Source: Clostridia bacterium (GTDB lineage Bacteria > Bacillota > Clostridia > Oscillospirales > CAG-272). From it: a DNA stretch of 57,045 bases. The notes under the pieces were generated by a model. The model was not told the origin of the DNA. It saw only the letters and a program-made list of their open reading frames with translations, and searched no databases. Shown piece after piece: positions 7,433-49,526 of this stretch. The DNA lies in contig JAFWXZ010000015.1 of the NCBI GenBank assembly GCA_017522795.1, positions 1 to 57,045 of the forward strand. Direction: 5' to 3'. The stretch's first letter is position 1; each line of letters begins with the position of its first letter. Both the position numbers and the translations under genes were made by a program.

Positions 7433-7451
7433 ATAAAAAAACATCTTGAAA

Positions 7452-8023: not shown

Positions 8024-8052
8024 CGCAAAGCGACCGTTTTGGTCGCTTTGCG
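8024..8052 (+). terminator. Hairpin after the secreted-protein gene
   Basis: Perfect 12-bp stem CGCAAAGCGACC / GGTCGCTTTGCG with a 5-base loop. No T-run follows, so it may protect the mRNA end rather than terminate. Confidence 0.5.
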
Positions 8053-8105
8053 TGACAAATAAATACAAAAATCTTTCCTTTGTAAACTTAATAACTTGCT
8101 TTTTT

Positions 8106-8136
8106 AAGCCAAAGAGATCTATTTTTGGCTTTTTTT
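8106..8136 (+). terminator. Rho-independent terminator
   Basis: Stem AAGCCAAA / TTTGGCTT followed by a T-run, between the secreted-protein gene and the HTH gene. Confidence 0.65.
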
Positions 8137-33538: not shown

Positions 33539-33602
33539 TAAAATAAAAGGGCTGGGTTACCCCAGCCCTAAAATTTAGAAAACAATTTAGGAGAATTGTT
33601 TT
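33539..33602 (-). terminator. Two-hairpin terminator of pilin unit A
   Basis: The first hairpin (AAAACAATT / AATTGTTTT, 33579-33587 with 33594-33602) overlaps the stop codon. The second is AGGGCTGGG / CCCAGCCCT (33548-33556 with 33561-33569), with a T-run on the minus strand. The first hairpin is identical in sequence to the one ending unit C at 49471-49494. Confidence 0.75.
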
Positions 33603-34377
33603 ATTCTGTGATTGTTACAGTGATCGTGGTCTCAGCATAACCGCCGTGATCATCGGAATACGAAATTGTAATCTCATGCTCACCGGGAGTGTTTGCGATA
33701 GCACCGTATCCCGAAACGTGCTTCATACGAAGCTTGATCGTCTCGAAGGTACCGTCGCTGTACTCAGCTACAATGTATCCGCCTGTGTGCTTAAAGGACT
33801 CGCCAACCTTGTAGGTTGTCTGAGGAAGGGGATCCACAGTGATGCCAACAAGTGTTGCATGAGCAACGTCATTTTCTATAATTTTAATGGTAAAGGTATC
33901 GGTAAATCCTCTGCATTCTACGGTAATTACCTGCTCTTCTGCGGGCTTTGAGCTGTCAAAACCTGTGATTGTAAAAGCATCGGGATCGTCGTTATAATTA
34001 ATGAACATACTTATTCCATCTGCACTCTTTAGATAGACCACTAGCCCAGAATAATTCGCAACATCTCCAACAGTATAATCTGTTTTCAAAGGAGTAGTGG
34101 AAATATAAAATTGTTTTATTTCATCAGGTACTTCTGTGTAATCACCGTCAGTAGTCCCACCGTCATTAGTTCCACCAGAGTTTTCTCCGCCGCTATTATT
34201 ATCGCCAGTAAGAATAACTACACCTACTATTACTATTGCTACAACAAGTACAACCGCAATAGCAATCATAAGTATCAGTTCTTTTTGTTTTTTTGTAAGA
34301 TTCTTTAAGAAACCAAAGTCAAAACTAAATTTGGCTTTGGAATCGGTATCAAAATCAAAATTATCTTTTTTTGCCAT
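33601..34377 (-). CDS. Unit A membrane protein with two Ig-like domains
   Basis: A 258-residue single-pass protein: a charged cytoplasmic N-terminus (MAKKDNFDFDTDSKAK), one membrane helix (about 34-56), a Gly/Asn/Thr-rich spacer, then two domains of about 75 residues with the Big_3 pattern (YTVGDVANYSGLVVYL ... GFTDTFTIKI; YKVGESFKHTGGYIVAEYSDGT ... GYAETTITVTI). It therefore displays Ig-like domains outside the cell. It is preceded by the unit A giant pilin-like gene, with a hairpin and the leader CCTGAAAGGGAAA between them, exactly as in units B and C. It may anchor, cap or assemble the pilin-like partner; this role is inferred. Confidence 0.8.
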   Translation of the reverse strand: MAKKDNFDFDTDSKAKFSFDFGFLKNLTKKQKELILMIAIAVVLVVAIVIVGVVILTGDNNSGGENSGGTNDGGTTDGDYTEVPDEIKQFYISTTPLKTDYTVGDVANYSGLVVYLKSADGISMFINYNDDPDAFTITGFDSSKPAEEQVITVECRGFTDTFTIKIIENDVAHATLVGITVDPLPQTTYKVGESFKHTGGYIVAEYSDGTFETIKLRMKHVSGYGAIANTPGEHEITISYSDDHGGYAETTITVTITE

Positions 34378-34404
34378 TATATTTCCCTTTCAGGATTTAT
34401 TAAC

Positions 34405-34430
34405 TCTGCGGCGGATTGATCCGCCGCAGA
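34405..34430 (-). promoter_or_regulatory. Unit A intercistronic hairpin
   Basis: TCTGCGGCGG pairs with CCGCCGCAGA between the giant pilin stop and the membrane-protein start. Equivalent hairpins sit at the same place in units B and C. Confidence 0.7.
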
Positions 34431-34441
34431 AAACTTATTAT

Positions 34442-37400
34442 TTATTCACCATAATTATATCCGGAGTATGTGATAGGATAATCGGTATCATCTCCAATCT
34501 GATAAATGGGAAGACTTGAATTAACCTTTCCGCCGGTGGGATTTACAAGTCTCTTGCGAGTGAGGATAATCTGTATTTTGGAATTAGTCTCAGGTGCCCA
34601 CGCTCTGTTATCCTTATGGCTCCAAATAACCACAAGACCATCAGTAGAAAAATACTGCTTTGCAGAATAAACCATCGTTCCTCCTATCTCTAATCCCGTT
34701 CTAGAGAAGAGAAGCGACAACTTATCAAAGGTTCTCTTTTTTATTGTTCCATCAGTTCTTCCAGCCTCGTTTATAGTTACACTTTCTGTCCAACCGGGAG
34801 CTCCCGATCCAAGCTCGCCAAAAACAATACCAGCATGAACATATCCATCACTTCTAGACATAGGGTCTTGGTTTTTGTCCTGATTGATAAAGTACTTTAC
34901 ACTTCCCATATCAACTTGTGCACTAATACCAAAAATGCTTGCATTAATTCCATCGAAAATAAAGCCAAACAAGTCATTAACATTAAGCGATACTCCGCCA
35001 GTTGTAAGAGAAGGAAGTGTAGCAGTCTGTCCCTTCTTTATCCAGTTAAACTGATCGAGATATCCTGTAATGGTTATTGTAGAATCAAGAGCGCCTCTTT
35101 CAAGGCCGATACCCATACCAGTAACAGAGGTTCCCTTCTTAGCAATATATCCAGAAGTTCCTACGGTACCAAGAGCAACAGTGTTCTGCATACCATTCTG
35201 ATCCTGAACGGTGGTAACATTATGCAAATTAAGGTTACCATCCTTAAGAAGAAGGTTAGCATAGTTACCACCACGAAGAGTGGTATCCTTAACTGTGAGA
35301 ACAGATGTGCTTCCGCTGGAAGCTACAGGCTGACGGAATCCACATACATAAGAGTTTTTGATAGTAGTAGCTCCACTTGCACTGATACCAGAAACATAGA
35401 ATCCGTTGTTATTATTATCATAGTTAAGCACGGGATATACGGGACCGTTAAGATAAATGTTCTCAATAACGCCGCCATTTGCGGAAATAAGGTAATCTGT
35501 AAGAACATTAGTTGCAGCGGAAGATACATACTCATCAGCGGTGATTACATAGCCGTTACCGTACATACTCTGACCGCCAAGATTAATCTTGTTGCCTGTT
35601 GTAACTGTAATATCATCATGAAGAATCACACCGGCTGCATGAGTAGCGTCATTAGCTGTGTAAAGCTCTGTGCTTATGGTATTCTTGTTTACATTCTTTG
35701 CATCAGCTACTACAACAATGTGAACGATCATTGCAAGGTCGTTTTTAGGAGCAATTTCAATAACTACATCGTAGTCACCAATTGCACCGTCCTCGTCGGT
35801 GTGATCATAGCCAGAGTCGGTATTGAACTGAATTTCTACATCACCCCAGTTAGAAGTGATATTAGAAGTATATTCATCGGTCCAAATCGCCTGTCCGTCA
35901 GGAGCATAGTTGTTGATCTCGTTAACTGTGAAGAGATCGGTACCTCTCTCTGCATAACCGTAAACGGTAAGTGTTGCACCATTGAAGGTGAAATCATCAT
36001 TGGTGTAGAAGAGGTCAGAAAGCTTAATGGAATCTCCGCTACCTACATAGTAGGGGCTGTAGTTTCTTGCGTGGTGGAACTTAAGTTTGAAGGGAGAGTT
36101 CACGATATCAACGATAGCTACAGTAAACTCGGTTTCAAGACGACCGTCAATAGATACGGTAAAGGTGTATTCGGATTCACCTACTGCGAAAGCAACCTTG
36201 CCGTCGGTGGTCTTGGATTCATCAGCCTTGGTAATAGTCATTTCACCGTCTCTGAGATCGTAAAGAGTCTCACCGGTTACGCTCTTCCAACCAATAGTAG
36301 GAACAAGCTCAATGGACTGGTTGTTGCCGTCACGAACATAGCTAAGGTGCTGTGCGCCTTGACCAAGAGGATAGCTATAGTCACCGATCTTTACGGTTGC
36401 ACTCTCAACGATTCTAACCTCAATCTTAAGAGTGTCTTCGCGATCTTCACCGGACAGATTCTTTGCATATGCAGTAATGGTCGCTCTATGGCTTCCTGCG
36501 AGAATTGCATCCTCGTCAAAGCTAAGTACACCGCCCTGAACGCTTATAGCTGTATTGTCAGACTCCCACTTATATACGCCGAGAGATGTTGCATCAGATG
36601 CGGTATCCTTTGCAAAGAGAGCGACCTGATCATTCACAAGGTTAGAAATGTAAAGAGTATCAGTGTTGAACTCAACAAGATCTTCCTTGGTTTCATAACC
36701 GATTTCAAAGTTTTCAAAAGGAAGTCTTACAATAAGATCCGCTACAAAAGCATCATCTGCCTTAGTTACGAGAATATCGCTATTAGCGCCGTTATCAGGA
36801 TAGTTGGGGCTTGTTCCAACAGTAACCTTATACTCTGTTCCCACTTTGCTTTTAATAATTGCATCGGTGGATTTTGGTGCGAATACATTTGCAATTGCGT
36901 TTTCATTTGCAAGGCTTGTATTGATTACAACAGAATTGCCGTCACCAAAATCAAGCGCTCCCTCTTCAACAAGCACAACAGAAGAAGGAAGGCTAATCTT
37001 ATTGCCCGCGGGGGTAGGAATTGTGCCGTTAGTCTTTTCATCAACGGTAGTGCCATTGTAAACGTAATGAGTTGTGGAAATAATCTTAACTCCGTTAGCA
37101 AAATAAACAAGATTATCAGTGCCGCTTGCAGCCTCTGAGAAATAGAACACACCGTTACCGTTGATTACAACGGTTTTCTTGAAGTTGTTAAGAACGGCGT
37201 TAGCAATTATGCCATAGATTTCATCATTGTTGGCAGCATCTGTAAGATTCTTAATGTAATTCAAATAGCTGTTTTCACCCGTTGCATCAATCGCGGACAT
37301 ATCACCAAATATGTTTGCAAGAGTATCAGCAGAGTCAATAAGGATGTAACCCTTATTGAATATGTCACGAATTCCATTGAACACAGAAGTTACCGTCTGG

Positions 37401-37822
37401 GGTTCATTATCAACAAGCATTGCAGAAGCAAGAACGGCGCCGCTAGGCTCTTCTACGCTCGCACTGAGATTAGCCGCAGGCATAGCTTCAACCTCTTCAG
37501 CCTTAGCAACGAAAATACTTTGAGTCTCCATGTTAAACCAGAAGTGGTAGCCGTAGCCGAGAGACTTGGGAACGAGCTTTTCAGCAACACCGGAATCAGT
37601 AAGAGCCTGCATAAGATCTTCCTCGGAGGTAATCTGTTTACCCTTTAATTCTACGTGCAGCTCGGTTGTGAGCGTAGCCGCCGCGGTCTGGTCAGCCGCG
37701 ATGTTGGCGTCCTTGATGATCGCGCCGAAGGTGGGAATCAGAACTGCGGAAAGGATTGCAATAACCGCAATTACGATTACCAACTCGACGATCGTAAACG
37801 CCGATCTTTTTGTGTTTTTCAT
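34442..37822 (-). CDS. Giant pilin-like protein A (1126 aa)
   Basis: Starts at 37822 after GTCAGGAGGACGAAAT. The N-terminus KRSA|FTIVELVIVIAVIAIL is a type IV prepilin signal with Glu at +5, but Ala rather than Gly at -1. A pilin-like head (KSLGYGYHFWFN, about 80-95) is followed by beta-rich regions with an Ig-like segment (YKWESDNTAISVQGG). The C-terminal domain looks like a parallel beta-helix (LYLN/IYLNGPVYP, NSYVCGFRQPV, TTLRGGNYANL, VTTVQDQNG). Normal pilins have 120-200 residues, so this is an adhesin-sized pilin fusion. It lacks the Cys/His insert of B and C. No clear sigma-A promoter lies between the upstream terminator and the gene. The first 143 coding bases plus 83 leader bases are nearly identical to unit C, in inverted orientation. 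Confidence 0.85.
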   Translation of the reverse strand: MKNTKRSAFTIVELVIVIAVIAILSAVLIPTFGAIIKDANIAADQTAAATLTTELHVELKGKQITSEEDLMQALTDSGVAEKLVPKSLGYGYHFWFNMETQSIFVAKAEEVEAMPAANLSASVEEPSGAVLASAMLVDNEPQTVTSVFNGIRDIFNKGYILIDSADTLANIFGDMSAIDATGENSYLNYIKNLTDAANNDEIYGIIANAVLNNFKKTVVINGNGVFYFSEAASGTDNLVYFANGVKIISTTHYVYNGTTVDEKTNGTIPTPAGNKISLPSSVVLVEEGALDFGDGNSVVINTSLANENAIANVFAPKSTDAIIKSKVGTEYKVTVGTSPNYPDNGANSDILVTKADDAFVADLIVRLPFENFEIGYETKEDLVEFNTDTLYISNLVNDQVALFAKDTASDATSLGVYKWESDNTAISVQGGVLSFDEDAILAGSHRATITAYAKNLSGEDREDTLKIEVRIVESATVKIGDYSYPLGQGAQHLSYVRDGNNQSIELVPTIGWKSVTGETLYDLRDGEMTITKADESKTTDGKVAFAVGESEYTFTVSIDGRLETEFTVAIVDIVNSPFKLKFHHARNYSPYYVGSGDSIKLSDLFYTNDDFTFNGATLTVYGYAERGTDLFTVNEINNYAPDGQAIWTDEYTSNITSNWGDVEIQFNTDSGYDHTDEDGAIGDYDVVIEIAPKNDLAMIVHIVVVADAKNVNKNTISTELYTANDATHAAGVILHDDITVTTGNKINLGGQSMYGNGYVITADEYVSSAATNVLTDYLISANGGVIENIYLNGPVYPVLNYDNNNNGFYVSGISASGATTIKNSYVCGFRQPVASSGSTSVLTVKDTTLRGGNYANLLLKDGNLNLHNVTTVQDQNGMQNTVALGTVGTSGYIAKKGTSVTGMGIGLERGALDSTITITGYLDQFNWIKKGQTATLPSLTTGGVSLNVNDLFGFIFDGINASIFGISAQVDMGSVKYFINQDKNQDPMSRSDGYVHAGIVFGELGSGAPGWTESVTINEAGRTDGTIKKRTFDKLSLLFSRTGLEIGGTMVYSAKQYFSTDGLVVIWSHKDNRAWAPETNSKIQIILTRKRLVNPTGGKVNSSLPIYQIGDDTDYPITYSGYNYGE

Positions 37823-37905
37823 ATTTCGTCCTCCTGACGATTTTTTATTTCTTTTTTCTCTCTTTTTCGACCGATTTCTATCGTTGATGTTAATAGAAAA
37901 CACAA
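37680..37905 (-). repeat. Long inverted repeat, left arm
   Basis: 226 bases covering the leader and first codons of giant pilin A. They match 45012-45237 in opposite orientation with 3 mismatches noticed by eye. The arms are about 7.1 kb apart and enclose the tyrosine recombinase gene. Confidence 0.85.
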
Positions 37906-37944
37906 AAAGCTCGGGAAGCCTTGAAAATCAAGGCTTCCCGAGCT
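37903..37944 (-). terminator. Strong terminator between recombinase and giant pilin A
   Basis: A perfect 17-bp stem (37908-37924 with 37928-37944, loop AAA) followed on the minus strand by TTTTTGTG. It should stop transcription from the recombinase gene entering pilin gene A. Confidence 0.85.
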
Positions 37945-37959
37945 TTGCTATACCAAAAT

Positions 37960-39057
37960 TTACGATAAAAGGCACAGCCTTTCCATATTGGTTTTCTTCA
38001 GATCCATTGAAGAATGAACGTATTTGTTCAGCGTCATTTCAATGCTACTGTGACCGAGGATCTCGCTGAGAGTTTTGATCTCAAAATTATACCTGTCAAC
38101 GCATCGCGTCGCGAAGCTATGGCGCAGGGTGTGAAAGGTTGCACCCTCAATTCCCACGTCATCAAGATACTTTTTAAACTTGTACTGCATTATCCGCGGC
38201 TCAACCACCTCACGCCCGATCGTCCCGAGAACGAAGCCGTCGGGGCGGCTCTCCCGCCTGAAATACTCAATGTATTCGCCAAGAAAGCTCGGCAGCGGGA
38301 TGGTCCGCGCAGACGTCTTGGTCTTTGGCGTACCAATGACAATCTCGCTACCAGACCTGCCGTCCTTGCTCAGCCTTTGCATCGTTCCTCGCACGTGCAG
38401 ACTTCCTCTCTCCACATCGCACCAGCGCAGCGCGCAAAGCTCTCCCACGCGCAGCCCAGTATACAGTGTCAGCAAAACACCAAACTTATATATATCCATA
38501 TCCCGCACGAGATACCTCTCCAGCCGCAGCTGCTCCTCTCGCGACAGAACGCGCATCTCAACCCGCTCTTTCGGAAAATAAACGAAGTCGGGCATCGGCA
38601 AATGATACTGCCTGTGGCCATACTTGAAGCAAGAATGTAAAAACGTAAGCAGCCCATTGACCGTCGCAGGCGAAAGCCCACTGTCCAGCCGCTCCACAGC
38701 AAACTCGTGCAGAGCGATCGTCGTACAGCTCAGCGCGGTGTACCCGCCTATCTGTGCCTCAATATGCTTATTGAAAAAGCTCTCGTACCGCCTCAGGCTG
38801 GACGGCTTTATGCGATTTGCGTTTAGGCTAAGCCACTCGCGGCATAGCCGCTCTACCGTAATTCCTCTTGGACCGCAGGATGCGCCGATCAGCAAAATAT
38901 TGTCCATAGCCGCCTGACGCTTGTCCTTCGCCTCGCTGCAAGTCCGCGCGTAAACCGAACCGTACTTTTTCTTGCCGAAAGCGTCGATTTCCTTAACGTA
39001 TCGCGCTTCCCACAAACCGTCCTTTCTCTTGTAAACCTTGTCGCCTTTTTTCGGCAT
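37960..39057 (-). CDS. Tyrosine recombinase/integrase
   Basis: A 365-residue site-specific recombinase. The start at 39057 (MPKKGDKVYK) follows GAGAGG; the extension to 39120 is unsupported. An N-terminal arm-binding domain (about 4-48, GLWEARYVKEIDAFGKKKYG) and a core-binding SAM-like domain (about 65-155) precede the catalytic domain, with Arg203 (TGLRVGEL), Lys near 247, His309-x-x-Arg312 (HTLRHSF), His336 (LGHSSIE) and nucleophile Tyr346. The set is complete, so it should be active. It sits between the inverted pilin units A and B and inside the 226-bp inverted repeats. An integrase of this type could invert that segment, or could be the remnant of an integrated element; no other element genes flank it. 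Confidence 0.9.
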   Translation of the reverse strand: MPKKGDKVYKRKDGLWEARYVKEIDAFGKKKYGSVYARTCSEAKDKRQAAMDNILLIGASCGPRGITVERLCREWLSLNANRIKPSSLRRYESFFNKHIEAQIGGYTALSCTTIALHEFAVERLDSGLSPATVNGLLTFLHSCFKYGHRQYHLPMPDFVYFPKERVEMRVLSREEQLRLERYLVRDMDIYKFGVLLTLYTGLRVGELCALRWCDVERGSLHVRGTMQRLSKDGRSGSEIVIGTPKTKTSARTIPLPSFLGEYIEYFRRESRPDGFVLGTIGREVVEPRIMQYKFKKYLDDVGIEGATFHTLRHSFATRCVDRYNFEIKTLSEILGHSSIEMTLNKYVHSSMDLKKTNMERLCLLS

Positions 39058-39165
39058 TCTTAAAATCCTCTCTTTCCTACCACAAATTTCACAACAAAAA
39101 GCATCAAAAACAAGCTCCAAAATTAACCATTTCTTAATATAATCATTAATTTTTATTAAAATAGA

Positions 39166-39208
39166 TTGTAAAATAGCTTATTTTATGCTATGATGAATGC
39201 GGTATAAT
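39166..39208 (+). promoter_or_regulatory. Promoter region of pilin unit B
   Basis: TTGTAA (39166-39171), 17 bases, TATGAT (39189-39194), with a second -10-like TATAAT at 39203-39208. A leader of about 150 bases follows, with hairpins CGGATGTT / AACATCCG (39227-39251) and TTTTCGC / GCGAAAA. Confidence 0.6.
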
Positions 39209-39354
39209 GTAATTGTATCACGATTTCGGATGTTTTGAATATTAACATCCGCGAGGGAAAATGCGAATATATTATGCCCGATTTTCGCAATTTTTATGCG
39301 CGAAAACACAGCTTGATTTGGAAATCAAAAAATAAAACGTCAGGAGGACGAAAA

Positions 39355-42300
39355 ATGAAAAACACAAAAAGATCGGCGTTTACGATCGTCGAGTTGGTAA
39401 TCGTAATTGCGGTAATAGCAATCCTCTCCGCAGTACTGATTCCCACCTTCGGCAGCATTATCAAAGACGCCACCATTGCGGCTGACCAGACCGCAATGCA
39501 CATACTCAATACCGAGCTGCAAATGTATCTCGAAGATGAGACCATTGACAGCGAGGCAGAACTTATGGAAGTGCTGAAGGACAGCGGTCTCGATAAAAAG
39601 CTCGTAACCAAGTCTATGGCTCACGGCTATTACTATTGGTTCAATATGGCAACGCAGAGCTTTGTTATTGGCACAACCAACGAGATTGCAGCAGAACCTG
39701 CTCCCGCTCCACAGGCTCAGAATAAGGGCAGTGCTCAGCTAATGAGCGCGGTAACCGTTGCAGATGGAGATGCGAACGAGCCTAAATATGCTAATATTTA
39801 TACCTTCCGTGAATTCTTCGGCAATGGCTATTATTTTGTTTCCTGTACAAACGGTGACGGATTCGGCCTTAGCGAAGCTATCAGCTTTATTGATGAACTT
39901 AGAAACGGTCAAGACTATGACAAACTCATCAAGTATTTTGAGTACGCAATGAAGAATGATGCTGATACCTCCGCGGTGAAGATTGTTTATGATTTGGTAA
40001 AGGATACCAATATTAGAAACCATAATGGTGTATTCTACCACGGCGACACAAGCATATATGAATATATTTCACCTAAGGCAACACGTCTTACAGGACCAAG
40101 TTACCAATATGTCAACGGAGAAGTAACCAAAAAATTCAAAGCACCAATGCCCACATCCGGTGAATATATATATATTCCTGACAATATTAAGATGATCCTC
40201 AAAGATGCTTTTTCATATGAAGCAGACGGAGACAAAGTTATGAAGGTAGGAATGCCAACAGTGGAAGCAACTTTGGCACTGTTTGGTCCTTATTCTAGTA
40301 ACAAAACCTCCCTTAACATTGAAGTCGAGGGCAAAAGCTATTATGTAAATAATATGATACTTTACGAAATTGTTGGAACTGGCAAAAAGAAAGCCGGTGA
40401 CCTTAAGCAAAGGCTAGAGTTTGGTGACACTTTCTGTATTGGATTTGAATCTATCAACGATGGAGTAATTGAATACAACAAGGACGCAGATACAATCTAT
40501 GTATCATATGGAGAAGGAACTCTTCAGCTTGTTGCAGTTAATCCCCAAAACTCCGATGAAGTTTCTTACACCGCATATGAATGGTCAATATCTGAGAAAA
40601 GCAATCTCTTAAATTCAGATGGTTCAACTAGCACTTCAGGAATTTTGGATCAGCGAACCGGTCTTATAGATCTTACTAAAACTCACTTTAAAGAGAATAC
40701 AGGAAAGTACATCTGCGAATTTACCGTAAAAGCAAAAGCAAGAAAACTAAGCGATGGTACAGATACAACTGATACCGTTAAGGTTGTAGTAATCAAGCCT
40801 GTATCTGCTACTCTTAGCTTTGGTGATTCTACAATTGCACTTGGCGGAGAAAATACAGCAGGCCCGGCTCTTGAATTTACCGGTTATTCTGCATCTTACG
40901 GATTAAGTGTATCCGTAAATTACAGCACTGATTCTAGCGGTAGCAATCCTCTTCTTGAACAGCTTGGTGGGGCTTTTGACATTGACACCAACGACGGCAA
41001 GCTTATTAGCTTGCATTACGATGGCACTAATATGTCCTTTAAGACCAACGCAAAGGGCGAGCTTGTAGCTGAAAAGGATCGTAACGACGAGCCTTACTAC
41101 AGCTTCGAGGTATCTATTGGCGGTGCGCTTAAGACAACTGTTACAGGTAATATTGTCGATAAAACTTCCGCTCCCGTACGCTTCAATTACAAGAAGTACA
41201 ACCAGGCAAATTGTCCCACATATCAGCTTGGTACAGTAAATGATATTAAGCTTTCTGATCTCTTCAGCATTTCTGCCGGAGCACAGGCGAAAGGCGGTTC
41301 TGCAAAGGTTACTATTTATTGTAATGCACCCGTAAATGGCAAATTTGATCCTACCGGCGAGATTCGCAAGGTGGTTGCAGAAAATGCTGCCGATGCATTG
41401 GAAAACGGATACGAAAATCCTTATACCCTTGACATTATTTATCCTACAAACGCCATCTCTTATAGCGATTGGAGCAATGCCGCACACGTAATTACGCTTC
41501 AGGGTGAGGTTGGTACAAATGGCGATCTGTATGAGAATCTTTATATTGAGATTGCTCCCACCGAGGGCGACGTAACTACTATAGCTAAAGTAGAGATCGT
41601 TGACGGAGCTGTTAACGTAACCGACCTTAATAGCCTTAAGCCTACCGATGGTGAAGGCAACGTGACCTCGAATGCTATTGTTCTTAATCAAAACGTAGTT
41701 CTTCACGGCACCTCTGAGATTACTACCGGTACTACCATTGAAATTGGTAAAGATATTACACTTCATGGTAACGGTCACGTAATTAATGCTGAAAAGTATG
41801 AGGCTGAAAACACCGGTGTTACAGAAAACAAATATAATTATTTAGATAAATCCAAGACGTATTGTAACGATCCCAACTGTCCCAATTATGCCCCCAACAA
41901 TGAAAAGGAATGGGTAAAGGATGTTTGTTATACGGAAAAGTGGACATTTAAGTTCCCCAAACATAGCCATAGAGTGGTAAAGAACGGTGAGAATATAAAG
42001 AGCACTTATTCAACCTTCCCGGGATATAAAACTAATCAGGCTATGATTATTCTTTCGGGTGGTACTATAGATAACATTTATGTTAATGGTCCTATATATC
42101 CTGAGCTTCAGTATCGTGCTGATGACAGTTATGACACTAATACCGTATCTGGAGTAACGGGTTATTATGTATCGGGTATTAAGACAACCGGTGATGCTAC
42201 CATCAAGAACTCTTACGTAATTGGATTCCGTCAGCCTGTACAGGTTGAAAGCGCAGCAACTGAAGGTCACTACGAGGCAAGTGGTAACACCACTACCCTT

Positions 42301-43314
42301 GTTATTGACAAGCAGGCAGAGACTACTACTCTTATGAACACCGTTCTTCGCGGCGGCAACTATGCTAACCTTGTAATTGTTTCGGGTAACATTGTTCTTG
42401 AGGACGTTACCACCATTCAGGACTACAACGGTATGACTCCCACTATAGGTGATAAGAGCAAAAACGTGTATGGCGCAGGTATTGTGCTTGAGGGTACTAC
42501 CGCACCTTCAAACGAAAAGGTTGCAGAAGCAATGGCTCTTCCATTTGTTGGAGATGAAGAGGCTAAGATACTTACCCTTCTTAGACCTCTCAGCACTAAG
42601 GTTGAAATCAAGGGCGATCTTACTCAGCACAACTGGCTTGAAAAGGATACTGCAAACAAGAATCTTCCTAACATTCAGCCTTATAACGGTTTCTCTATTG
42701 GCTTGAAAGAAATATTCGGTTACTTCTTCAATGGATTTGGAATTGAGGAAATGAACGTAGGTAGAATGGGCAGATTTATGGATTACATCCATCAGGATGC
42801 CAATTTGTCGCTTGAGGAAAACCGCATTACAAATACTTACTATGCTTACGGTGCTAAAGATCCTAACGCAAACAAGAACGAGATGTTGAACTTTGGTATT
42901 CTGTTTGTCGACGTTGAGCAGAATTATAATGATTCTGTTATCAATGAACATTATGCTAAACTAATGGTTAATATTGACGAAAGTGAACGTAATGGTGGCA
43001 AGCAGTTCGGTACCGTATCCGTTCAGCTCTCTCACGAAAGCATGAAGGGACTTACCGCTGCGGATTTGCGTACCAAGGGCGCAGACGTTTCTCTTGTTAT
43101 ATGGAGCTACACCGATGGACGTAAGTGGGCACAGACAAGTGAGACTAGAACTATAGTAGGTTTGGGAGAAGTACCTTATTACTCTTACTACACAACTTCC
43201 GCAACCGACTGGAACAATATAAATGTTGTCACAGATAGTGATAAGTACTACAGCCCCAATGCTCTCTACGGTTCTAACGGCGCATACTCTGCGTGGTATG
43301 GCAGTAAAAATTAA
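39355..43314 (+). CDS. Giant pilin-like protein B (1319 aa)
   Basis: Starts at 39355 after GTCAGGAGGACGAAAA; the upstream in-frame extension lacks a site. The prepilin N-terminus KRSA|FTIVELVIVIAVIAIL is the same as in A and C. The head segment KSMAHGYYYWFNMATQS, a beta-rich centre with an Ig-like part and the C-terminal beta-helix-like domain (NIYVNGPIYPELQY, NSYVIGFRQPV, LRGGNYANL, TTIQDYNG, WSYTDGRKW) align with the paralogues. At about residues 825-890 it has an insert with YCNDPNCPNY, a further Cys and HSH, absent from A. It is the largest of the three, has its own promoter, and is followed by its Ig-like membrane partner. The product should be exported and processed by a prepilin peptidase not encoded here. 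Confidence 0.85.
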   Translation: MKNTKRSAFTIVELVIVIAVIAILSAVLIPTFGSIIKDATIAADQTAMHILNTELQMYLEDETIDSEAELMEVLKDSGLDKKLVTKSMAHGYYYWFNMATQSFVIGTTNEIAAEPAPAPQAQNKGSAQLMSAVTVADGDANEPKYANIYTFREFFGNGYYFVSCTNGDGFGLSEAISFIDELRNGQDYDKLIKYFEYAMKNDADTSAVKIVYDLVKDTNIRNHNGVFYHGDTSIYEYISPKATRLTGPSYQYVNGEVTKKFKAPMPTSGEYIYIPDNIKMILKDAFSYEADGDKVMKVGMPTVEATLALFGPYSSNKTSLNIEVEGKSYYVNNMILYEIVGTGKKKAGDLKQRLEFGDTFCIGFESINDGVIEYNKDADTIYVSYGEGTLQLVAVNPQNSDEVSYTAYEWSISEKSNLLNSDGSTSTSGILDQRTGLIDLTKTHFKENTGKYICEFTVKAKARKLSDGTDTTDTVKVVVIKPVSATLSFGDSTIALGGENTAGPALEFTGYSASYGLSVSVNYSTDSSGSNPLLEQLGGAFDIDTNDGKLISLHYDGTNMSFKTNAKGELVAEKDRNDEPYYSFEVSIGGALKTTVTGNIVDKTSAPVRFNYKKYNQANCPTYQLGTVNDIKLSDLFSISAGAQAKGGSAKVTIYCNAPVNGKFDPTGEIRKVVAENAADALENGYENPYTLDIIYPTNAISYSDWSNAAHVITLQGEVGTNGDLYENLYIEIAPTEGDVTTIAKVEIVDGAVNVTDLNSLKPTDGEGNVTSNAIVLNQNVVLHGTSEITTGTTIEIGKDITLHGNGHVINAEKYEAENTGVTENKYNYLDKSKTYCNDPNCPNYAPNNEKEWVKDVCYTEKWTFKFPKHSHRVVKNGENIKSTYSTFPGYKTNQAMIILSGGTIDNIYVNGPIYPELQYRADDSYDTNTVSGVTGYYVSGIKTTGDATIKNSYVIGFRQPVQVESAATEGHYEASGNTTTLVIDKQAETTTLMNTVLRGGNYANLVIVSGNIVLEDVTTIQDYNGMTPTIGDKSKNVYGAGIVLEGTTAPSNEKVAEAMALPFVGDEEAKILTLLRPLSTKVEIKGDLTQHNWLEKDTANKNLPNIQPYNGFSIGLKEIFGYFFNGFGIEEMNVGRMGRFMDYIHQDANLSLEENRITNTYYAYGAKDPNANKNEMLNFGILFVDVEQNYNDSVINEHYAKLMVNIDESERNGGKQFGTVSVQLSHESMKGLTAADLRTKGADVSLVIWSYTDGRKWAQTSETRTIVGLGEVPYYSYYTTSATDWNNINVVTDSDKYYSPNALYGSNGAYSAWYGSKN

Positions 43315-43343
43315 TAGCATAGCGAAAAAATACATCTAATCGT

Positions 43344-43371
43344 TTCTGCGGCGACTTTTGCCGCCGCAGAA
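43344..43371 (+). promoter_or_regulatory. Unit B intercistronic hairpin
   Basis: TTCTGCGGCG pairs with CGCCGCAGAA, followed by the CCTGAAAGGGAAAACAA leader of the membrane-protein gene, as in units A and C. Confidence 0.7.
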
Positions 43372-43397
43372 TTAACAACTCCTGAAAGGGAAAACAA

Positions 43398-44174
43398 ATG
43401 GCAAAAAAAGACGATAATTTTGATTTTGATACAGAATCTAAAGCCAAACCGAGTTTTGACCTTAGCTTCTTAAAAAACCTTACTAAAAAGCAAAAGGAAA
43501 CCATTATTACAATAGCTATTTCAGTAGTAGCATTAGCAGTAATAATTATAGTTGGAGTGCTTTTGCTTGGCGGGGGTGACGCGATCAATGGAAACAACGG
43601 TAACGGGGACATTAATATTGATTTTGGTCCTACTACCGGTGTTGAGTCTGATGAAATATCCGATATGATTCTTTCTTCCGTCCCCAACAAAACTGTTTAT
43701 TACGTTGGAGAGAATATTGATCTCTCGGGACTCACACTGTATATAAAAATGAAGAACGGTAGTGAGATATATGAACGTTATGACGACCGCCTTTCTAGTT
43801 TTGTTGTAAGTGGCTTTAACAGTTCTGCTCCCATAGATCAGCAGGTGGTAACTGTAAAATACAAGAAACAAAGCGTTTCGTTTACAGTTAAGATAAAGGA
43901 AATGCCCGTGGCAGAACCCTCCGTTCAGAGTATAACAGTTAATCCGCTCCCCAAAACCGAATACAAGGTTGGCGGCTCATTCATCGCACGAACCGCAAAG
44001 ATCGTTGCGACGTTTAGTGATGGTTCTACTCAAGAAATTGCACTTAATAGAAGTCACCTTTCTAATTGGGCAGAAGCAATTCAGGCACCCGGCACCCACG
44101 AGATCAAAGTGGTATACTTCGACGGCAACGGAGGCTACGCTGAAACTACATTCACCATAACTGTAGCTGAATAA
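43398..44174 (+). CDS. Unit B membrane protein with two Ig-like domains
   Basis: A 258-residue paralogue of the unit A and C membrane proteins: cytoplasmic MAKKDDNFDFDTESKAK, one membrane helix (about 36-58), a Gly/Asn spacer and two Big_3-like domains (YYVGENIDLSGLTLYIKM; YKVGGSFIARTAKIVATFSDGS ... GGYAETTFTITV). It is the most diverged of the three in its outer domains, as its pilin partner is. It is co-transcribed with giant pilin B, 83 bases downstream across the conserved hairpin. The order and spacing suggest that each membrane protein is dedicated to its own pilin. Confidence 0.8.
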   Translation: MAKKDDNFDFDTESKAKPSFDLSFLKNLTKKQKETIITIAISVVALAVIIIVGVLLLGGGDAINGNNGNGDINIDFGPTTGVESDEISDMILSSVPNKTVYYVGENIDLSGLTLYIKMKNGSEIYERYDDRLSSFVVSGFNSSAPIDQQVVTVKYKKQSVSFTVKIKEMPVAEPSVQSITVNPLPKTEYKVGGSFIARTAKIVATFSDGSTQEIALNRSHLSNWAEAIQAPGTHEIKVVYFDGNGGYAETTFTITVAE

Positions 44175-44309
44175 TTTACATTAAAATACCAACGTCGGAG
44201 AGGTGGGCAAAAAAACGCCCTAAATTATAAGATTATTCCGACAAAACTAAATGATATAATTTGTTCGAAAGAGCAATTATAAATAAAATTTTTTTCAAGG
44301 AGAAAAACA

Positions 44310-44660
44310 ATGAAAAAGACAAACAAAAAGGGCTTTACTATCGTTGAGCTCGTAATCGTAATCGCAGTTATTGCGATCCTTTCCGCAGTACTTATCCCCA
44401 CCTTCGGCTCAGTTATCTCTGAGGCAAGTGATGTTGCAGGTAAGCAGGATGCTCGTAATGGTTACCTTAAGTGGTATGCGGAAGACATCAAGGATGGTGT
44501 TATTGATGCAGAGCTCGATGGCACAGCGCTTGATACTAACTACACTTCGACTGCTGATGGTTCAGCGAAGTACACTCATACCGCATCCGACGGTACTACT
44601 ACCTATGCCTTTGATGGTAGCAAGTACTATAAGAACGGCACTGAAATGACCAACGACTAA
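44310..44660 (+). CDS. Type IV pilin-like protein, normal size (116 aa)
   Basis: Starts after CAAGGAGAAAAACA. The N-terminus KKG|FTIVELVIVIAVIAIL is a canonical prepilin signal with Gly at -1 and Glu at +5, and the following helix (SAVLIPTFGSVISEA) is nearly identical to those of the giant proteins. The remaining head is small, Thr/Ala/Tyr/Asp-rich and has no cysteines. A TATAAT at 44255-44260 suggests its own promoter, though the -35 box is poor. It could be the major subunit of a filament that carries the giant proteins as rare or tip subunits. No PilB, PilC or prepilin peptidase genes are nearby. Confidence 0.85.
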   Translation: MKKTNKKGFTIVELVIVIAVIAILSAVLIPTFGSVISEASDVAGKQDARNGYLKWYAEDIKDGVIDAELDGTALDTNYTSTADGSAKYTHTASDGTTTYAFDGSKYYKNGTEMTND

Positions 44661-44674
44661 TGTTCGATCTTCTT

Positions 44675-44830
44675 CTAAAACCCACTCGGAAATAGGTTTT
44701 AGTTTAAGATAAAATTTTGGTAAGTGTCTTCTGTTGTTTCGGACACTTACTGAAATTCTCCTAACTAGATTGGGTTTTTTGTTTCCCAATCTAACCCGAG
44801 GGCTGGGGTATCTCAGCCCTTTTCTTTTTG
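44675..44830 (+). terminator. Cluster of hairpins ending with a terminator after the small pilin
   Basis: Four stems in 150 bases: CTAAAACC/GGTTTTAG (44675-44702), TAAGTGTC/GACACTTA (44721-44749), TAGATTGGG/CCCAATCTA (44766-44793) and AGGGCTG/CAGCCCT (44799-44820), the last followed by TTTTCTTTTTG. The last resembles the terminators after units A and C. Confidence 0.65.
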
Positions 44831-44881
44831 TGTTTTATCTTTCTTGGCGCGAGGAGAAGGCGCGGCTTTATCGCAAAAAAA

Positions 44882-44950
44882 TGTCCTCTAAAAATGCGTT
44901 TTAGAGGACAAAAAATCGAGGCTCGGCGAGATTTTATCGCCGAGCCTTTT
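44882..44950. terminator. Back-to-back hairpins ahead of giant pilin C
   Basis: TGTCCTCTAAAA/TTTTAGAGGACA (44882-44910) has T-runs in the minus direction, and AGGCTCGGCGA/TCGCCGAGCCT (44919-44947) is followed by TTTT on the plus strand. Together they insulate unit C from both sides. Between here and the start at 45095 no clear sigma-A promoter is visible. Confidence 0.6.
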
Positions 44951-45011
44951 GTGGTAGTTTTTTGTATAGAGAACGCCAAAAACCTAGACGCGCCAAGGCT
45001 TTTTCGTCCTC

Positions 45012-45237
45012 TTGTGTTTTCTATTAACATCAACGATAGAAATCGGTCGAAAAAGAGAGAAAAAAGAAATAAAAAATCGTCAGGAGGACGAAATATGAAA
45101 AACACAAAAAGATCGGCGTTTACGATCGTCGAGCTGGTAATCGTAATTGCGGTAATAGCAATCCTTTCCGCAGTTCTGATTCCCACCTTCGGCGCGATCA
45201 TCAAGGACGCCAACATCGCGGCTGACCAGACCGCGGC
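45012..45237 (+). repeat. Long inverted repeat, right arm
   Basis: 226 bases covering the leader and first codons of giant pilin C, matching 37680-37905 in reverse. Both arms keep exactly 83 bases from the arm edge to the start codon. Confidence 0.85.
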
Positions 45238-48200
45238 CAGCACTCTGACTACAGAGCTTCACGTTTACCTTATGGGTAAAGAAATTAAAACTGAGGCAGA
45301 GCTTGTTAAGGCTCTCAATGATGAAAAGCTTGGCTTTACCGACAAGAAGCTTACTCCCAAATCGGCAAGCTACGGGTACCATTATTGGTATGATGCTGAA
45401 ACCCAGACAATTATTACCGGTACAGCCGCACAGATTGAAGAAATCGGTAAAGAAAGAAAACAATCTGGTACTGTAACTCAGGACGGTCCTGCTCTTATGT
45501 CTGCAGTCCTTGTTAACGAAACAGAAAACAATAATTCTGCAAACATCAGCTTCCGTGATATCTACGGTTACGGCATCTATCTTATTGATAAGGGCGGTAG
45601 CTACATTGCAGAAGCAATTAACGAGATCGATAAGCTTTCCGGCAAGACTTCTTATGAATCATTGATAAACAAACTTGCAACTGCTGTAAGCGAAGATGCT
45701 GATAAAGAGTTTGTTACCCTAATCCAGACAACCGTTACTACTACGACAATTAGAACCGAGGCAGGAGCTTTCTTCACCGAGGGCGAGAGCACAAATGAGT
45801 ATTTCTCTGCGTCTGCTACTTTCGTTGGTAACGTATATTACAACTATACCGAGGGAAGCGTAAACACAGATAGTTCAAGTGCTCCTACTCCCACCGGTAC
45901 GGTTGAGGTTCCTTCTCATATCAACGGTATTGTAGAGGGTGGACTTAATTATTCTGCGGAAGCTGAGGTTACTATTACTATTGAAAGCACTTCCGTTCTC
46001 GCTCCTAACTCGACTAATGCAACGGTAAAATATGATGACGAGGAGTGGACTGTAGAGGGAGATGTTCTTGTTTCCACTAAGACTGAGAACAAGCCCGCCG
46101 ATATTCCTCTTGTTAAGAAGCTTACCTTTAATGACTTTGTGATCAGTTACAACGACCCCGGTGATGCTTCTAAGGTTAACGTTAACGCCGGCAACATTTA
46201 CATTTCCTATACTGCAGAGCTTGACTTCTTCGCAAAGAATGCTGCTGAAGGAAGCACCGAGACATCCGAGTTTATTAACGAATGGAAATCTTCTAACGAA
46301 AATGTTGCAAAAGTAAGTGATATTGGTTTGGTTACTATCACCACTCCTAATGATACAAACGGTTATTCCACCACAATCACAGCAAAGGCTCTTGATATGG
46401 ACGGCAACGAAATCGAAAGATCTGTGACCGTTATCGTTAACAAGCCTATGGAAGCAAACATTACTCTTGCTGGTAGAACGTTTGCTCTTAACGGCGGCAC
46501 TCACGAGCTTGACTGGTTCTACTCCACTGGTGCAAAGCTTACATCCGCCGTTTCCGGAACTATTAATTATAAGTATGAGGATGTTTTTGCAAAGGGTACC
46601 AACGATATAACCGTTTCTGTTGCTGAAGGTAGTATCTTCGCTGCAAGCGGTAAGGACATCACGCTTGTTTCCTCTGAAAGCGTAGGATATTTCACCGTTT
46701 CTGTGGACGGCGGTCTTCTTGCAACTACCTTTAAGGTAAACGTAATTGATAACTCCAAGTCTACTGTTGATATTGACTTCTATGATAAGGATGCTACTCC
46801 CGAAACCTACCTTCACTACATAGGTAGTAAGGATGGCGTTAAGCTTGGTGACCTCTTCACCGATAAGGGCGGTATGGTTGGCGCAACTGTTAACATCTAT
46901 GACGCTGTAGATGCTGACGGCTCTGTATTTAAGTGGAACACCAACTGGACTAACGACGAGGTTTCTGCACAGATTGACGGCGCAGCATATAACGGAAGCA
47001 CATACACTTGGACTCTTGATTCCGATTGGGAGAACGCAATTCTTCGGTTCAGCACATCTGATGGTTATGTTCCTGAAGATTTTGATATTCATATTAAGGT
47101 TGCTCCCTCCAATGGTGCGGCATATGTTGTTAAGGTTGTAGTTGTTGACGCTGCTAACGTTAATAATGTAGAGGATATGAAGACCGCATTTGCAGCAGGT
47201 AAGGATGTTGTTCTTCATTCCGATGTTTCTGTAAGCACAGGTACAACTATCAATGTTGGAGATAATATTCTTTACGGTAATGGTTATGTAATAAGCGCGA
47301 AAACATATGTTGCAGATGCAACTGGTGGAACGGATAATTATGTAACATATTCTTATACTACGAAAAAGGTTTGTGATAATTCCTCTTGCGGTAAATATGG
47401 TACGGGTTGGTCTACCTTGGGTTGTGGTCTAGGCGGTCACGCATCAAAAAATATTATAACTGGAACTACAAAAAATAAAGGTGATGCCTATACTGCATAC
47501 AGAACAAATCAGTCTATGATTACACTTTCTGGTGGTAAGATAGACAATATTTATATTGACGGCCCTGTTTATCCTGAACTTCAGTATTACACTGACGAGA
47601 GTTATGATGGAAATAGCACCGGTCATACAGCATATTATGTGTCCGGCATTACTACAACAGGAACATCTACTATTGTCAATTCTTATGTTACCGGTTTCCG
47701 TCAGCCTGTACAGGCTGCGGGTACTCTGCTGAATGTTGAGAACACCACTCTTCGTGGCGGTAACTACAGCAACCTTCTTCTTTCTGCAGGTAACCTTTAT
47801 CTCAAGAACGTAACAACCGTTCAGGATCAAAAGGGTCAGCAGGCTACCGTTGGAGATACAAGTAAGAGTGTAATTGGTATGGGTATTGCAATCGGTACAG
47901 GCGCACTTTCCTCTACCATTACCATTGATGGTTATCTCAATCAGCACAACTGGGTAAAACAGAATCCCGGAGGTAGTCTTCCTGTTATTACAGATACAAG
48001 TGGCACAGAGTTGAATTTGGGCAACCTGTTTGGATATATATTTACGGGTATGACTAAGTTGGGACAGACTATTGAGGTTGGTAGTCTTCAGTACTATATC
48101 CATAAGGATCAGCAGAATATGGAATCTGATGCAAGTAAGTGTGAAAACAATTACGTAAACGCAGGTATTGTGTTCTGTGAAATTGGTAATTCATCTTATA

Positions 48201-48610
48201 TTGATGGATTGAACGTTAACGTATCTATTATTAATGGTGCAAATCGTGACAAGGGCATTATGTCAAAGACGAATCTTGATGTTCTTGATATGAGATTTAA
48301 AGATTTGGGATTAACACTTGGTCCTATAAGCATTAACGCTGCTACTGAGCTTGGTACAGATGGTAGATTCATTGTCTGGAGTTATAAGGATGGACGTAAC
48401 TGGGTTAGAAATGGTCTTGCAATAGATCTTGTTTCTGGCTCTGCACCTAGTGTAGTCGTAGACAGCACTTTGACCGAGGATCCTTCTGCATCTGTAAGCG
48501 GATTCACCGGTACTTACGTTCCCGTTGTATACAGAGGTCGTTATGACAACCTTGGTGTATATACCTCTAAGTATATCATCAACGACAGTAACAAGCTTAC
48601 TGCAAACTAA
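45095..48610 (+). CDS. Giant pilin-like protein C (1171 aa)
   Basis: Starts at 45095 after GTCAGGAGGACGAAAT. The prepilin N-terminus KRSA|FTIVELVIVIAVIAIL and the first 47 codons are almost identical to protein A at DNA level. The head motif KSASYGYHYWYDAETQ, an Ig-like segment (WKSSNENVAKVSDIG), and the beta-helix-like C-terminus (NIYIDGPVYPELQY, NSYVTGFRQPV, TTLRGGNYSNL, VTTVQDQKG, WSYKDGRNW) follow. At about residues 755-790 it carries a Cys/His insert (VCDNSSCGKY, then LGCGLGGH), like B but with different spacing. It is followed by its membrane partner. Terminators lie upstream and no clear promoter is seen, so its control is unexplained. Confidence 0.85.
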   Translation: MKNTKRSAFTIVELVIVIAVIAILSAVLIPTFGAIIKDANIAADQTAASTLTTELHVYLMGKEIKTEAELVKALNDEKLGFTDKKLTPKSASYGYHYWYDAETQTIITGTAAQIEEIGKERKQSGTVTQDGPALMSAVLVNETENNNSANISFRDIYGYGIYLIDKGGSYIAEAINEIDKLSGKTSYESLINKLATAVSEDADKEFVTLIQTTVTTTTIRTEAGAFFTEGESTNEYFSASATFVGNVYYNYTEGSVNTDSSSAPTPTGTVEVPSHINGIVEGGLNYSAEAEVTITIESTSVLAPNSTNATVKYDDEEWTVEGDVLVSTKTENKPADIPLVKKLTFNDFVISYNDPGDASKVNVNAGNIYISYTAELDFFAKNAAEGSTETSEFINEWKSSNENVAKVSDIGLVTITTPNDTNGYSTTITAKALDMDGNEIERSVTVIVNKPMEANITLAGRTFALNGGTHELDWFYSTGAKLTSAVSGTINYKYEDVFAKGTNDITVSVAEGSIFAASGKDITLVSSESVGYFTVSVDGGLLATTFKVNVIDNSKSTVDIDFYDKDATPETYLHYIGSKDGVKLGDLFTDKGGMVGATVNIYDAVDADGSVFKWNTNWTNDEVSAQIDGAAYNGSTYTWTLDSDWENAILRFSTSDGYVPEDFDIHIKVAPSNGAAYVVKVVVVDAANVNNVEDMKTAFAAGKDVVLHSDVSVSTGTTINVGDNILYGNGYVISAKTYVADATGGTDNYVTYSYTTKKVCDNSSCGKYGTGWSTLGCGLGGHASKNIITGTTKNKGDAYTAYRTNQSMITLSGGKIDNIYIDGPVYPELQYYTDESYDGNSTGHTAYYVSGITTTGTSTIVNSYVTGFRQPVQAAGTLLNVENTTLRGGNYSNLLLSAGNLYLKNVTTVQDQKGQQATVGDTSKSVIGMGIAIGTGALSSTITIDGYLNQHNWVKQNPGGSLPVITDTSGTELNLGNLFGYIFTGMTKLGQTIEVGSLQYYIHKDQQNMESDASKCENNYVNAGIVFCEIGNSSYIDGLNVNVSIINGANRDKGIMSKTNLDVLDMRFKDLGLTLGPISINAATELGTDGRFIVWSYKDGRNWVRNGLAIDLVSGSAPSVVVDSTLTEDPSASVSGFTGTYVPVVYRGRYDNLGVYTSKYIINDSNKLTAN

Positions 48611-48622
48611 TTAAAAAACAGT

Positions 48623-48650
48623 TTCTGCGGCGGCGAAAGTCGCCGCAGAA
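48623..48650 (+). promoter_or_regulatory. Unit C intercistronic hairpin
   Basis: TTCTGCGGCG pairs with CGCCGCAGAA, followed by CCTGAAAGGGAAAACAAA ahead of the membrane-protein gene. Same position and sequence type as in units A and B. Confidence 0.7.
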
Positions 48651-48677
48651 TTCAAAATGCCTGAAAGGGAAAACAAA

Positions 48678-49472
48678 ATGGCAAAAAAAGATACAGAAAA
48701 TTTTGATTTTGAAACAGAATCCGAGGGTAAAGGGAAATTTGATCTTGCGGGATTCTTTAAAAATCTTACAAAACAGCAAAAAGGTATTATCCTTATTGCT
48801 GCTGTGGCTATTGTGCTTGTTGTCGCAATAGTAGTTGTATGTGCTATTGTAGGTGCAAACGGCGGATTTAACAGTGACGGAGGCACCAACGGAAGCAGTG
48901 GTGATAATTCCACAACCGATGGTGACGGCAATATACACGATGAAGTTCCGGACACAATTATTGAGTTCTATATTTCCTCTCCACCTGTAAGAAATCTGTA
49001 CAATGTTGGCGACGAGGCTAACTATTCAGGTTTGACATTCTTTATCAGAGATACTGATCGTAACATTATTAATATCAGTTATGATGATGATCCTGATGCA
49101 TTCAATATCACGGGATTTGATAGCTCCGCTCCTGTAGAATCACAGACTATTACGGTAGAATGTAGAGGATATACAGATACTTTTGTTGTAAAAATAGAAG
49201 AGCCTGCTCCAGTAAAGCCCACCCTCGTAAATATTACAATAGATCCAATGCCTCAAACGACCTATGGAAAAGGCGAGTCGCTTAATTTAATGGGTTCATA
49301 TATTGTGGTTGAATATAGCGATGGTACAACCGAATCTATCAAGCTTAGAATGAAGCATATATCTGGCTTTGATCCCGATTTGACTGTTGGTGATCATGTG
49401 TTGACTGTTAAGTACCATGATGATAACGGCGGCTATGCCGAAACCACATTCACTGTAACAATCACAGAATAA
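48678..49472 (+). CDS. Unit C membrane protein with two Ig-like domains
   Basis: Starts at 48678 after GAAAGGGAAAACAAA; the frame also opens at 48657 but without a site. The 264-residue product has a charged N-terminus (MAKKDTENFDFETESEGK), one membrane helix (about 38-62), a Gly/Ser/Asp-rich spacer and two Big_3-like domains (YNVGDEANYSGLTFFI ... GYTDTFVVKI; YGKGESLNLMGSYIVVEYSDGT ... GYAETTFTVTI). It is closest to the unit A protein (shared ITGFDSS, TVECRG, IKLRMKH), which supports A and C being the most recent duplicates. It faces the outside of the cell and is paired with giant pilin C. Confidence 0.8.
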   Translation: MAKKDTENFDFETESEGKGKFDLAGFFKNLTKQQKGIILIAAVAIVLVVAIVVVCAIVGANGGFNSDGGTNGSSGDNSTTDGDGNIHDEVPDTIIEFYISSPPVRNLYNVGDEANYSGLTFFIRDTDRNIINISYDDDPDAFNITGFDSSAPVESQTITVECRGYTDTFVVKIEEPAPVKPTLVNITIDPMPQTTYGKGESLNLMGSYIVVEYSDGTTESIKLRMKHISGFDPDLTVGDHVLTVKYHDDNGGYAETTFTVTITE

Positions 49473-49526
49473 AACAATTCTCCTAAATTGTTTTCAACTA
49501 AAAAGGGCTGATTTCAGCCCTTTTTG
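49471..49526 (+). terminator. Two-hairpin terminator of pilin unit C
   Basis: AAAACAATT/AATTGTTTT (49471-49494) is the exact counterpart of the unit A hairpin at 33579-33602. It is followed by AAAAGGGCTG/CAGCCCTTTT (49501-49524) and a T-run. Confidence 0.8.

Follow-up and report, generated by a model that had tools for sequence, protein, structure and literature searches.

The window analysed here is a stretch of 57,045 nucleotides (nt) from a Clostridia bacterium (assembly GCA_017522795.1, contig JAFWXZ010000015.1) and is the entire contig C17 of a 1.65-Mb, 81-contig metagenome-assembled genome with a completeness of 78%. It encodes three giant type IV pilins, A, B and C, each followed by a membrane protein (Am, Bm and Cm), with the gene for a tyrosine recombinase in the interval between A and B. 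At the level of sequence, the parts and their arrangement are present: three paralogous units, the recombinase gene, near-identical pilin heads, promoter-like and hairpin sites, and a pilus operon on another contig. We read the locus, at slightly better than even odds (roughly 0.52), as one of phase-variable giant modular type IV pilins whose expression would be switched by recombinase-driven inversion, with display on the pilus as the likeliest fate of the giants. A preliminary description of the region had suggested that the giants may be interchangeable, and this idea returns here in a stronger sense, as the layout resembles a recombinase-driven expression switch; the recombinase had been overlooked, as had the arrangement of inverted repeats on either side of its gene.

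The gene for giant A (1126 aa; 34442-37822) is on the minus strand, and those for B (1319 aa; 39355-43314) and C (1171 aa; 45095-48610) are on the plus strand. The recombinase is read from the minus strand (37960-39120) as an open reading frame (ORF) of 386 aa, or 365 aa if translation starts at the ATG of 39057, and matched PF00589 (67.7 bits) and PF14659 (24.8 bits) in Pfam. In an alignment with two relatives, the Arg of TGLR/TGMR, the Lys of PK, FHxLRH, LGH and the Tyr were invariant in all three sequences, and we assume that these residues have their usual catalytic roles. B would be the occupant of the expression site, and A and C are proposed to be silent copies.

Every exact inverted repeat of at least 24 nt in the 57 kb was located at the pilin heads or at the ends of the A and C units. 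The head of A shares 59 nt, starting at the ATG, with the head of B (37764-37822, minus strand; 39355-39413, plus strand), and 122 nt of leader and head, including 83 nt of leader, with C (37784-37905, minus strand; 45012-45133, plus strand). A further 80 nt are exactly repeated between A and C further into the genes, and 46 nt at the 3' ends of the two units (33578-33623, minus strand; 49450-49495, plus strand); with these end repeats, inversion or exchange might also involve the 15.9-kb region as a whole. Similarity ends at the same place in all three genes, about 140 nt into the coding sequence. The leader is common to A and C, and B has a different one, which is what would be expected if the crossover fell inside the coding head and the leader of the expression site stayed with its promoter. 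The sequence AAAACACAAAAAG, which occurs with its inverse near A and C, was considered as a core site and is not claimed as one; no inverse copy was found at B, and similar sequences are present at other sites (8851, 27219 and 34281). A search with Rfam at gathering scores of the window, L097, L098 and L003, aimed at riboswitches or other RNAs in the leaders of the heads, gave a tRNA on L003 only.

The three proteins are 35-39% identical over their length and nearly identical over the first 47 codons. To separate DNA from protein conservation, identical codons were counted where the amino acid is shared. Within codons 1-40, the codon was the same in 36/39 cases for A and C, 31/37 for A and B, and 32/37 for B and C, compared to about 50% from codon 401 onward (136/262, 119/234 and 135/274, respectively). 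The small pilin, whose protein is also conserved, shares 17-19 of 29-30 codons with the heads, and the contrast between this value and that of A and B is weak (p = 0.03). The excess of identical codons in the heads suggests exchange of DNA rather than protein constraint alone.

A promoter-like site directed into B, TTGTAA-N17-TATGAT with a TG before the -10 element, is located at 39166-39194 on the plus strand. No promoter-like match was seen directly upstream of A, where a terminator-like hairpin with a 19-bp stem occupies the interval between the recombinase gene and A (37906-37946, minus strand), nor in a scan of the interval between the small pilin and C, which contains a terminator-like hairpin on the strand of C (44798-44821). 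With B expressed and A and C silent, the recombinase would invert the DNA between inverted head repeats. Recombination between A and B would flip a segment of roughly 1.5 kb with the recombinase gene and the promoter, such that the promoter would read A instead of B, and the resulting fusion would be in frame because the 59-nt match has the ATG of each gene as its first codon. Recombination between A and C would exchange what adjoins the recombinase.

Similar layouts were found in two other species. The closest recombinase in the genus, 44% identical to that of the window, lies in genome G002 between two divergent pilin-headed genes, p472 (472 aa, minus strand) and p616 (616 aa, plus strand); a third, p405 (405 aa, plus strand), is found further on, and all are beside a pilus operon. 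The heads and leaders of these genes, the latter with a 45-codon ORF, have 96-99% identity and include uninterrupted matches of 420-459 nt, and the proteins diverge beyond them. A promoter match (11/12) precedes p616, beside the start of the recombinase gene and just outside the repeat, and no promoter match was seen in front of p472 and p405, where hairpins are found instead; the repeats start just downstream of the promoter of the sole promoter-bearing copy. In genome G023, the recombinase is 46% identical to that of the window, and the contig reads hairpin, recombinase, promoter match (10/12) and pilin-headed gene. On the far side this contig ends within what appears by eye to be an inverted copy of the leader (40 nt, 82.5% match), and the other half of the locus could not be placed. 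The pilin-headed bodies of both genomes are smaller and no match to a Big_3 partner was found with them, so the switch and the partner are separable. As a separate observation, an ORF of roughly 45 codons for a small membrane peptide lies in the repeated pilin leader of L097 (three copies) and of L098.

Among 24 loci of the recombinase family with wide flanks (23 plus L099), an inverted repeat of at least 40 nt flanked the gene in six: the window, L097, L098, L136, L140 and, as a single distant pair, L142. A further 36 integrase matches were viewed with flanks of up to 1.5 kb, and not every integrase was tagged. The L140 relative is beside a sortase-type pilin gene (PF16569) and is flanked by inverted repeats of 54-64 nt. 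A tandem repeat of about 34 nt also occurs there, inverted on both sides of the recombinase (8239-8302 and 9804-9899), and is a candidate recognition site. Of 20 family recombinase loci, six were beside SipW/TasA-like genes, named by eye from motifs, and three, also by eye, beside a giant surface-type protein. Such neighbors are frequent for the subfamily (L129-L148 and L159-L184), which may represent a general switch enzyme for surface fibers.

The giants themselves have the features of type IV pilins. All three start with MKNTKRSAFTIVELVIVIAVIAILSAVLIPTFG, and the junction between leader and mature protein is SA followed by FTIVELVIVIAVIAIL, a class III signal with Glu5 and a hydrophobic stretch. 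Ala is permitted as the last leader residue of such signals (PMC10191384). PF07963 scored 21.4, 21.0 and 21.5 bits for A, B and C in the Pfam scan, where B was just below the cut-off of 21.2, and all three were above the cut-off, at 27.2 bits, in the genome search. The prepilin signals predicted in the preliminary description were therefore confirmed, as was the presence of an ordinary small pilin among the units (116 aa, 44310-44660, plus strand; N_methyl, 30.8 bits), which lies between Bm and C. The signal and the alpha-1 helix are joined to a body of approximately 1,000 residues that matched no Pfam family and in which, outside the head, A, B and C are evenly diverged (about 36% identity). 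All 11 aligned giants retain F1, E5 and the hydrophobic stretch. A structural model of A has a long N-terminal helix (residues 11-59) with block means of 48-81 in the predicted local distance difference test (pLDDT). Its best matches in the PDB were cadherin-type beta-sandwich chains, and pectate-lyase beta-helix chains were matched with a probability of 0.99 and an E of about 0.03. The earlier assignment of an Ig-like segment and a beta-helix-like C-terminus has partial support from these PDB matches, set against the low confidence of the model and the E value of the helix match. In the same genome, L004 contains a pilin-headed gene (6655-8109, minus strand) for 484 aa whose body resembles, by eye, BspA-type leucine-rich repeats.

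The partners, encoded directly downstream of A, B and C, are membrane proteins of 258-264 aa: Am at 33601-34377 (minus strand), Bm at 43398-44174 (plus strand) and Cm at 48678-49472 (plus strand; the ORF opens at 48657). They scored 54.9, 53.9 and 35.0 bits for Big_3, respectively; no other Pfam family was above cut-off for the partner, and NCBIfam gave no match for Am. The model of Am (mean pLDDT 78.1) contains one transmembrane helix (29-56) and two high-confidence beta domains, with block means of 85-97 from residue 91 onward, and Foldseek matched it to surface immunoglobulin (Ig)-like and Rib domains in the PDB. These results agree with the single-pass partner with two Big_3-type domains that had been proposed for each giant. 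The conserved hairpin said to separate giant and partner is likewise there: two copies are palindromes of 28 nt (43344-43371 and 48623-48650), and the A copy is a 69-nt match of 83%. The expressed giant would be cleaved by prepilin peptidase and, as family knowledge suggests, enter the pilus via its alpha-1 helix; its likeliest position is the tip, and the large beta-rich body would act there as an adhesin; the partner, probably co-transcribed, may stabilize or anchor the giant before assembly.

The two-gene unit is kept beyond the source genome, as its description as a repeated unit with a dedicated membrane partner would lead one to expect. A scan of GTDB genome contigs gave six relatives of the giants, and searches of the genus and the family gave more. 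A Big_3 partner was found downstream of 16 of 17 pilin-headed giants (A, B, C, L005-L010, L022, L023 and L072-L077; L071 shares its contig with L005 and was left out). Giant and partner are separated by an Lgt-like gene in L008. The seventeenth giant, L009, is at a contig end, with 461 nt left past the gene; the final ORF there begins with a membrane-type segment and had no BLAST match. The pair of giant pilin and Big_3 membrane protein is a real unit. Ala rather than Gly before the cleavage site was considered as a hallmark of the giants and rejected, as Ala is present in 12/17 and Gly in L010, L073, L075, L076 and L077. A polytopic membrane gene matching PF14808 (TMEM164-related) follows the partner in seven relatives (L006 at 14109, L007 at 15058, L008 at 4767, L010 at 14045, L023 at 3917, L072 at 3623 and L073 at 10576), forming a three-gene unit there; it is absent from the units of the window, and three genes of this type are found on other contigs of the source genome.

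In the 395 genomes of the family, scored on the best two or fewer giant candidates and the best seven or fewer partner candidates per genome, seven (G000, G088, G150, G193, G213, G271 and G415) had a match from the head through most of the giant model in a frame of more than 1,100 aa. The same seven hold the best partner matches, 11 places at 116 bits or more, a dividing score picked after the scores were known; the next match, in a 1427-aa frame, had 104.6 bits. The giant search listed only two of A, B and C, and counts of giants per genome are therefore at least the number found. Among viral contigs searched for relatives, only matches to the pilin signal (13 loci) and one Big_3 match were seen.

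Machinery for pilus assembly is present in the source genome. Contig C53 encodes a prepilin peptidase (PF01478, 62 bits), PilC (PF00482, 189 bits) and PilB (PF00437, 453 bits), together with two small pilins and further prepilin-like ORFs. All components for which a check had been proposed were thus found, which removes the absence of a prepilin peptidase as a ground for refuting the pilin assignment. No PilT was seen, the PF00437 match being the only one in this 78%-complete genome. Across 70 genomes of the genus, PF00437 scored at least 450 bits in 11; 20 pass the curated cut-off, the other nine with less than 57 bits. All five genus genomes with pilin-headed giants or a pilin/recombinase array (G000, G002, G003, G023 and G037) fall among these 11 (hypergeometric p = 3.8e-5, for groups defined once the searches had been run). 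The unit of L072 comes immediately after PilD-PilC-PilB, and in L010 one ORF is in between. An ordinary signal anchor is not favored as the nature of the N-terminal helix.

Seven relatives share the body of the giants and have no pilin head, and in the stretches examined none of them has a Big_3 partner (0/7). For this reason, the partner appears linked to the pilin head or to the approximately 400 residues behind it, and not to the beta-helix half. Five of the seven (L024, L025, L026, L080 and L081) have a TasA/camelysin-type N-terminus (PF12389 above cut-off), and two, L078 and the second gene of L079 (9342-14378), have by eye a Sec-type signal; the first gene of L079 was excluded, as its start is off the contig. 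One type of body seems to be mounted on different export and fiber systems. Among the three genus genomes with the TasA-type form in place of the pilin head, G033 and G038 had no PF00437 match and G050 a strong one. An intein/Hint-like C-terminal stretch (CVTPDTLVTLADG and similar) was noted by eye in L007 (9755-14353), L023 (5412-10019) and L024-L026, with a weak NCBIfam match to an intein in L007; self-cleavage or coupling would be a possible role.

Several observations weigh against a pilus-displayed, inversion-switched locus. No inverted state was seen, with one assembly per species. The heads of A and B are 92% identical over 169 nt, which is below the level for frequent homologous exchange, so the proposal has to assume crossover at a short specific site, and no core recombination site was identified. 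The promoter and terminator sites were called by similarity to a consensus: the site before B matches at 9/12 positions, and its region of 2.1 kb gave four matches compared to 2.0 (standard deviation 1.4) in shuffled sequence. One of the three hairpins before C is on the strand of C, the other two (44882-44910 and 44919-44947) being called on the minus strand only. In the recombinase family, 18 of the 24 loci, several of them incomplete, had no flanking inverted repeat of at least 40 nt. As for display, the model of A has a mean pLDDT of 58.5, a low confidence; genome G069 has a pilin-headed frame of 238 aa and no PF00437 match; and the role suggested for the partner is a proposal.

Some of these points would suit a static array of paralogues that arose by duplication, with the heads evened out by gene conversion, the integrase as a passenger and all giants co-expressed on the same pili. 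All units are indeed paralogous, the A and B heads are not identical, many relatives of the integrase are found away from pilins, and each species shows a single arrangement. Such an array would not account for the recurrence, in G002 and (as far as its contig extends) in G023, of a recombinase of this subfamily placed likewise between divergent pilin heads, for the lack of a promoter-like match directly before A or C, or for repeats in G002 that start just past the promoter of the lone promoter-bearing copy. We therefore consider it unlikely, although it is the strongest competitor to inversion.

A different alternative, independent of the switch, is that the giants are membrane-held surface adhesins that act with their partner and never enter pili, the head being merely an anchor. 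The very large bodies, a membrane partner tied to the pilin-headed form, and related bodies that lack the pilin head and carry other export signals could all be explained in this way. Conservation of F1, E5 and the hydrophobic stretch in every aligned giant would not be expected of a mere anchor, nor would the restriction of pilin-headed giants of the genus to PilB-positive genomes or the units behind pilus assembly genes in L010 and L072, and we regard this alternative as rather improbable. RecA-dependent exchange between expressed and silent pilin copies, as in Neisseria-like gene conversion with an irrelevant integrase, would suit the long near-identical heads of G002 and is quite improbable for the window, given an exact A/B match of only 59 nt, the even divergence of A, B and C outside the head and a recombinase gene at the switch point in three species.

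Inversion with display on the pilus can be extended to a fuller proposal, which we put forward tentatively and at somewhat less than even odds. A cassette of tyrosine recombinase and outward promoter, by crossing over within the coding sequence for the signal and alpha-1 helix, would switch whole units and thereby swap tip adhesins together with their cofactors, and the giant with its Ig-domain partner would form a new pilus sub-system, a monoderm counterpart of PilY1.

In the remainder of the window, genes for MalK-type ABC ATPases flank the region on both sides, and two adjoining large serine recombinases are encoded at the start of the contig (37-3041).

The locus can be compared with several known systems. 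In the shufflon of R64, Rci is also of the tyrosine type. In Moraxella, one constant 5' end is joined to alternative bodies, the recombinase Piv belongs to an IS110-like family and the major pilins are small. In the window, by contrast, each of the bodies comes with a head of its own, and the recombinase, a tyrosine integrase, is encoded within the segment proposed to invert. For Moraxella bovis and M. lacunata, phase variation of type IV pilins through inversion of DNA was described by Marrs 1988 and Rozsa 1997 (cited in PMC5903667, PMC11868660 and PMC11208160). The PilV shufflon of R64 and related plasmids uses its recombinase to select the C-termini of a tip-located adhesin (PMC11852207, PMC9045228). 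The window differs in that whole headed genes with partner genes would be exchanged, and not C-terminal segments at sfx sites; neither an sfx-like site family nor a repeat family separating C-terminal segments was found in it. Hin of Salmonella is encoded inside its invertible segment, and the repeats of the Hin and Vpma systems are short sites. With these systems the window shares a recombinase encoded at the locus and, as proposed, silent paralogues activated by a promoter that inversion adds; unlike them, it encodes pilins rather than lipoproteins or flagellin, and its repeats are pilin-head coding sequence. Activation of silent paralogues by promoter addition is described for Vpma inversion in Mycoplasma agalactiae (PMC5634654; title cited in PMC11868660).

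Adhesin-sized pilin fusions in a repeated two-gene unit with a membrane partner had been presented in the preliminary description as an unrecognized system. The fusions by themselves are not new, as 'modular pilins' are published (PMC8179133). These carry large grafted modules, e.g., PilB (vWA) and PilC (lectin) of Streptococcus sanguinis (PMC8179133, PMC9934059), and an 860-residue protein is given as the most extreme case with multiple added domains (PMC8179133). A, B and C resemble them in having a class III signal and an alpha-1 helix, with what may be grafted modules, in a monoderm host, and in both cases bulky modules favor a position at the tip. They differ in size (1126-1319 aa compared to 50.5 kDa for processed PilB), in a body without a Pfam family, in the dedicated Big_3 partner and in the presence of several alternative copies next to a recombinase gene. 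The open-access literature matches listed, subscription papers and preprints being outside this scope, included none that describes giant pilins with a Big_3 partner or inversion of pilin genes in Clostridia, and the main text of a 2025 survey of invertons in a gut community does not contain 'pilin' or 'type IV' (PMC11892184). Both modular pilins and inversion of pilin DNA have precedents, and the combination proposed here would be a new variation on them. If our reading is true, DNA inversion determines which adhesin uncultured gut Clostridia present at the end of their type IV pili, and giant pilins have a membrane partner dedicated to them. The very large tip adhesin PilC/PilY1 is described as absent in monoderms (PMC9934059), and the giant modular pilins with their partner are candidates for its monoderm counterpart.

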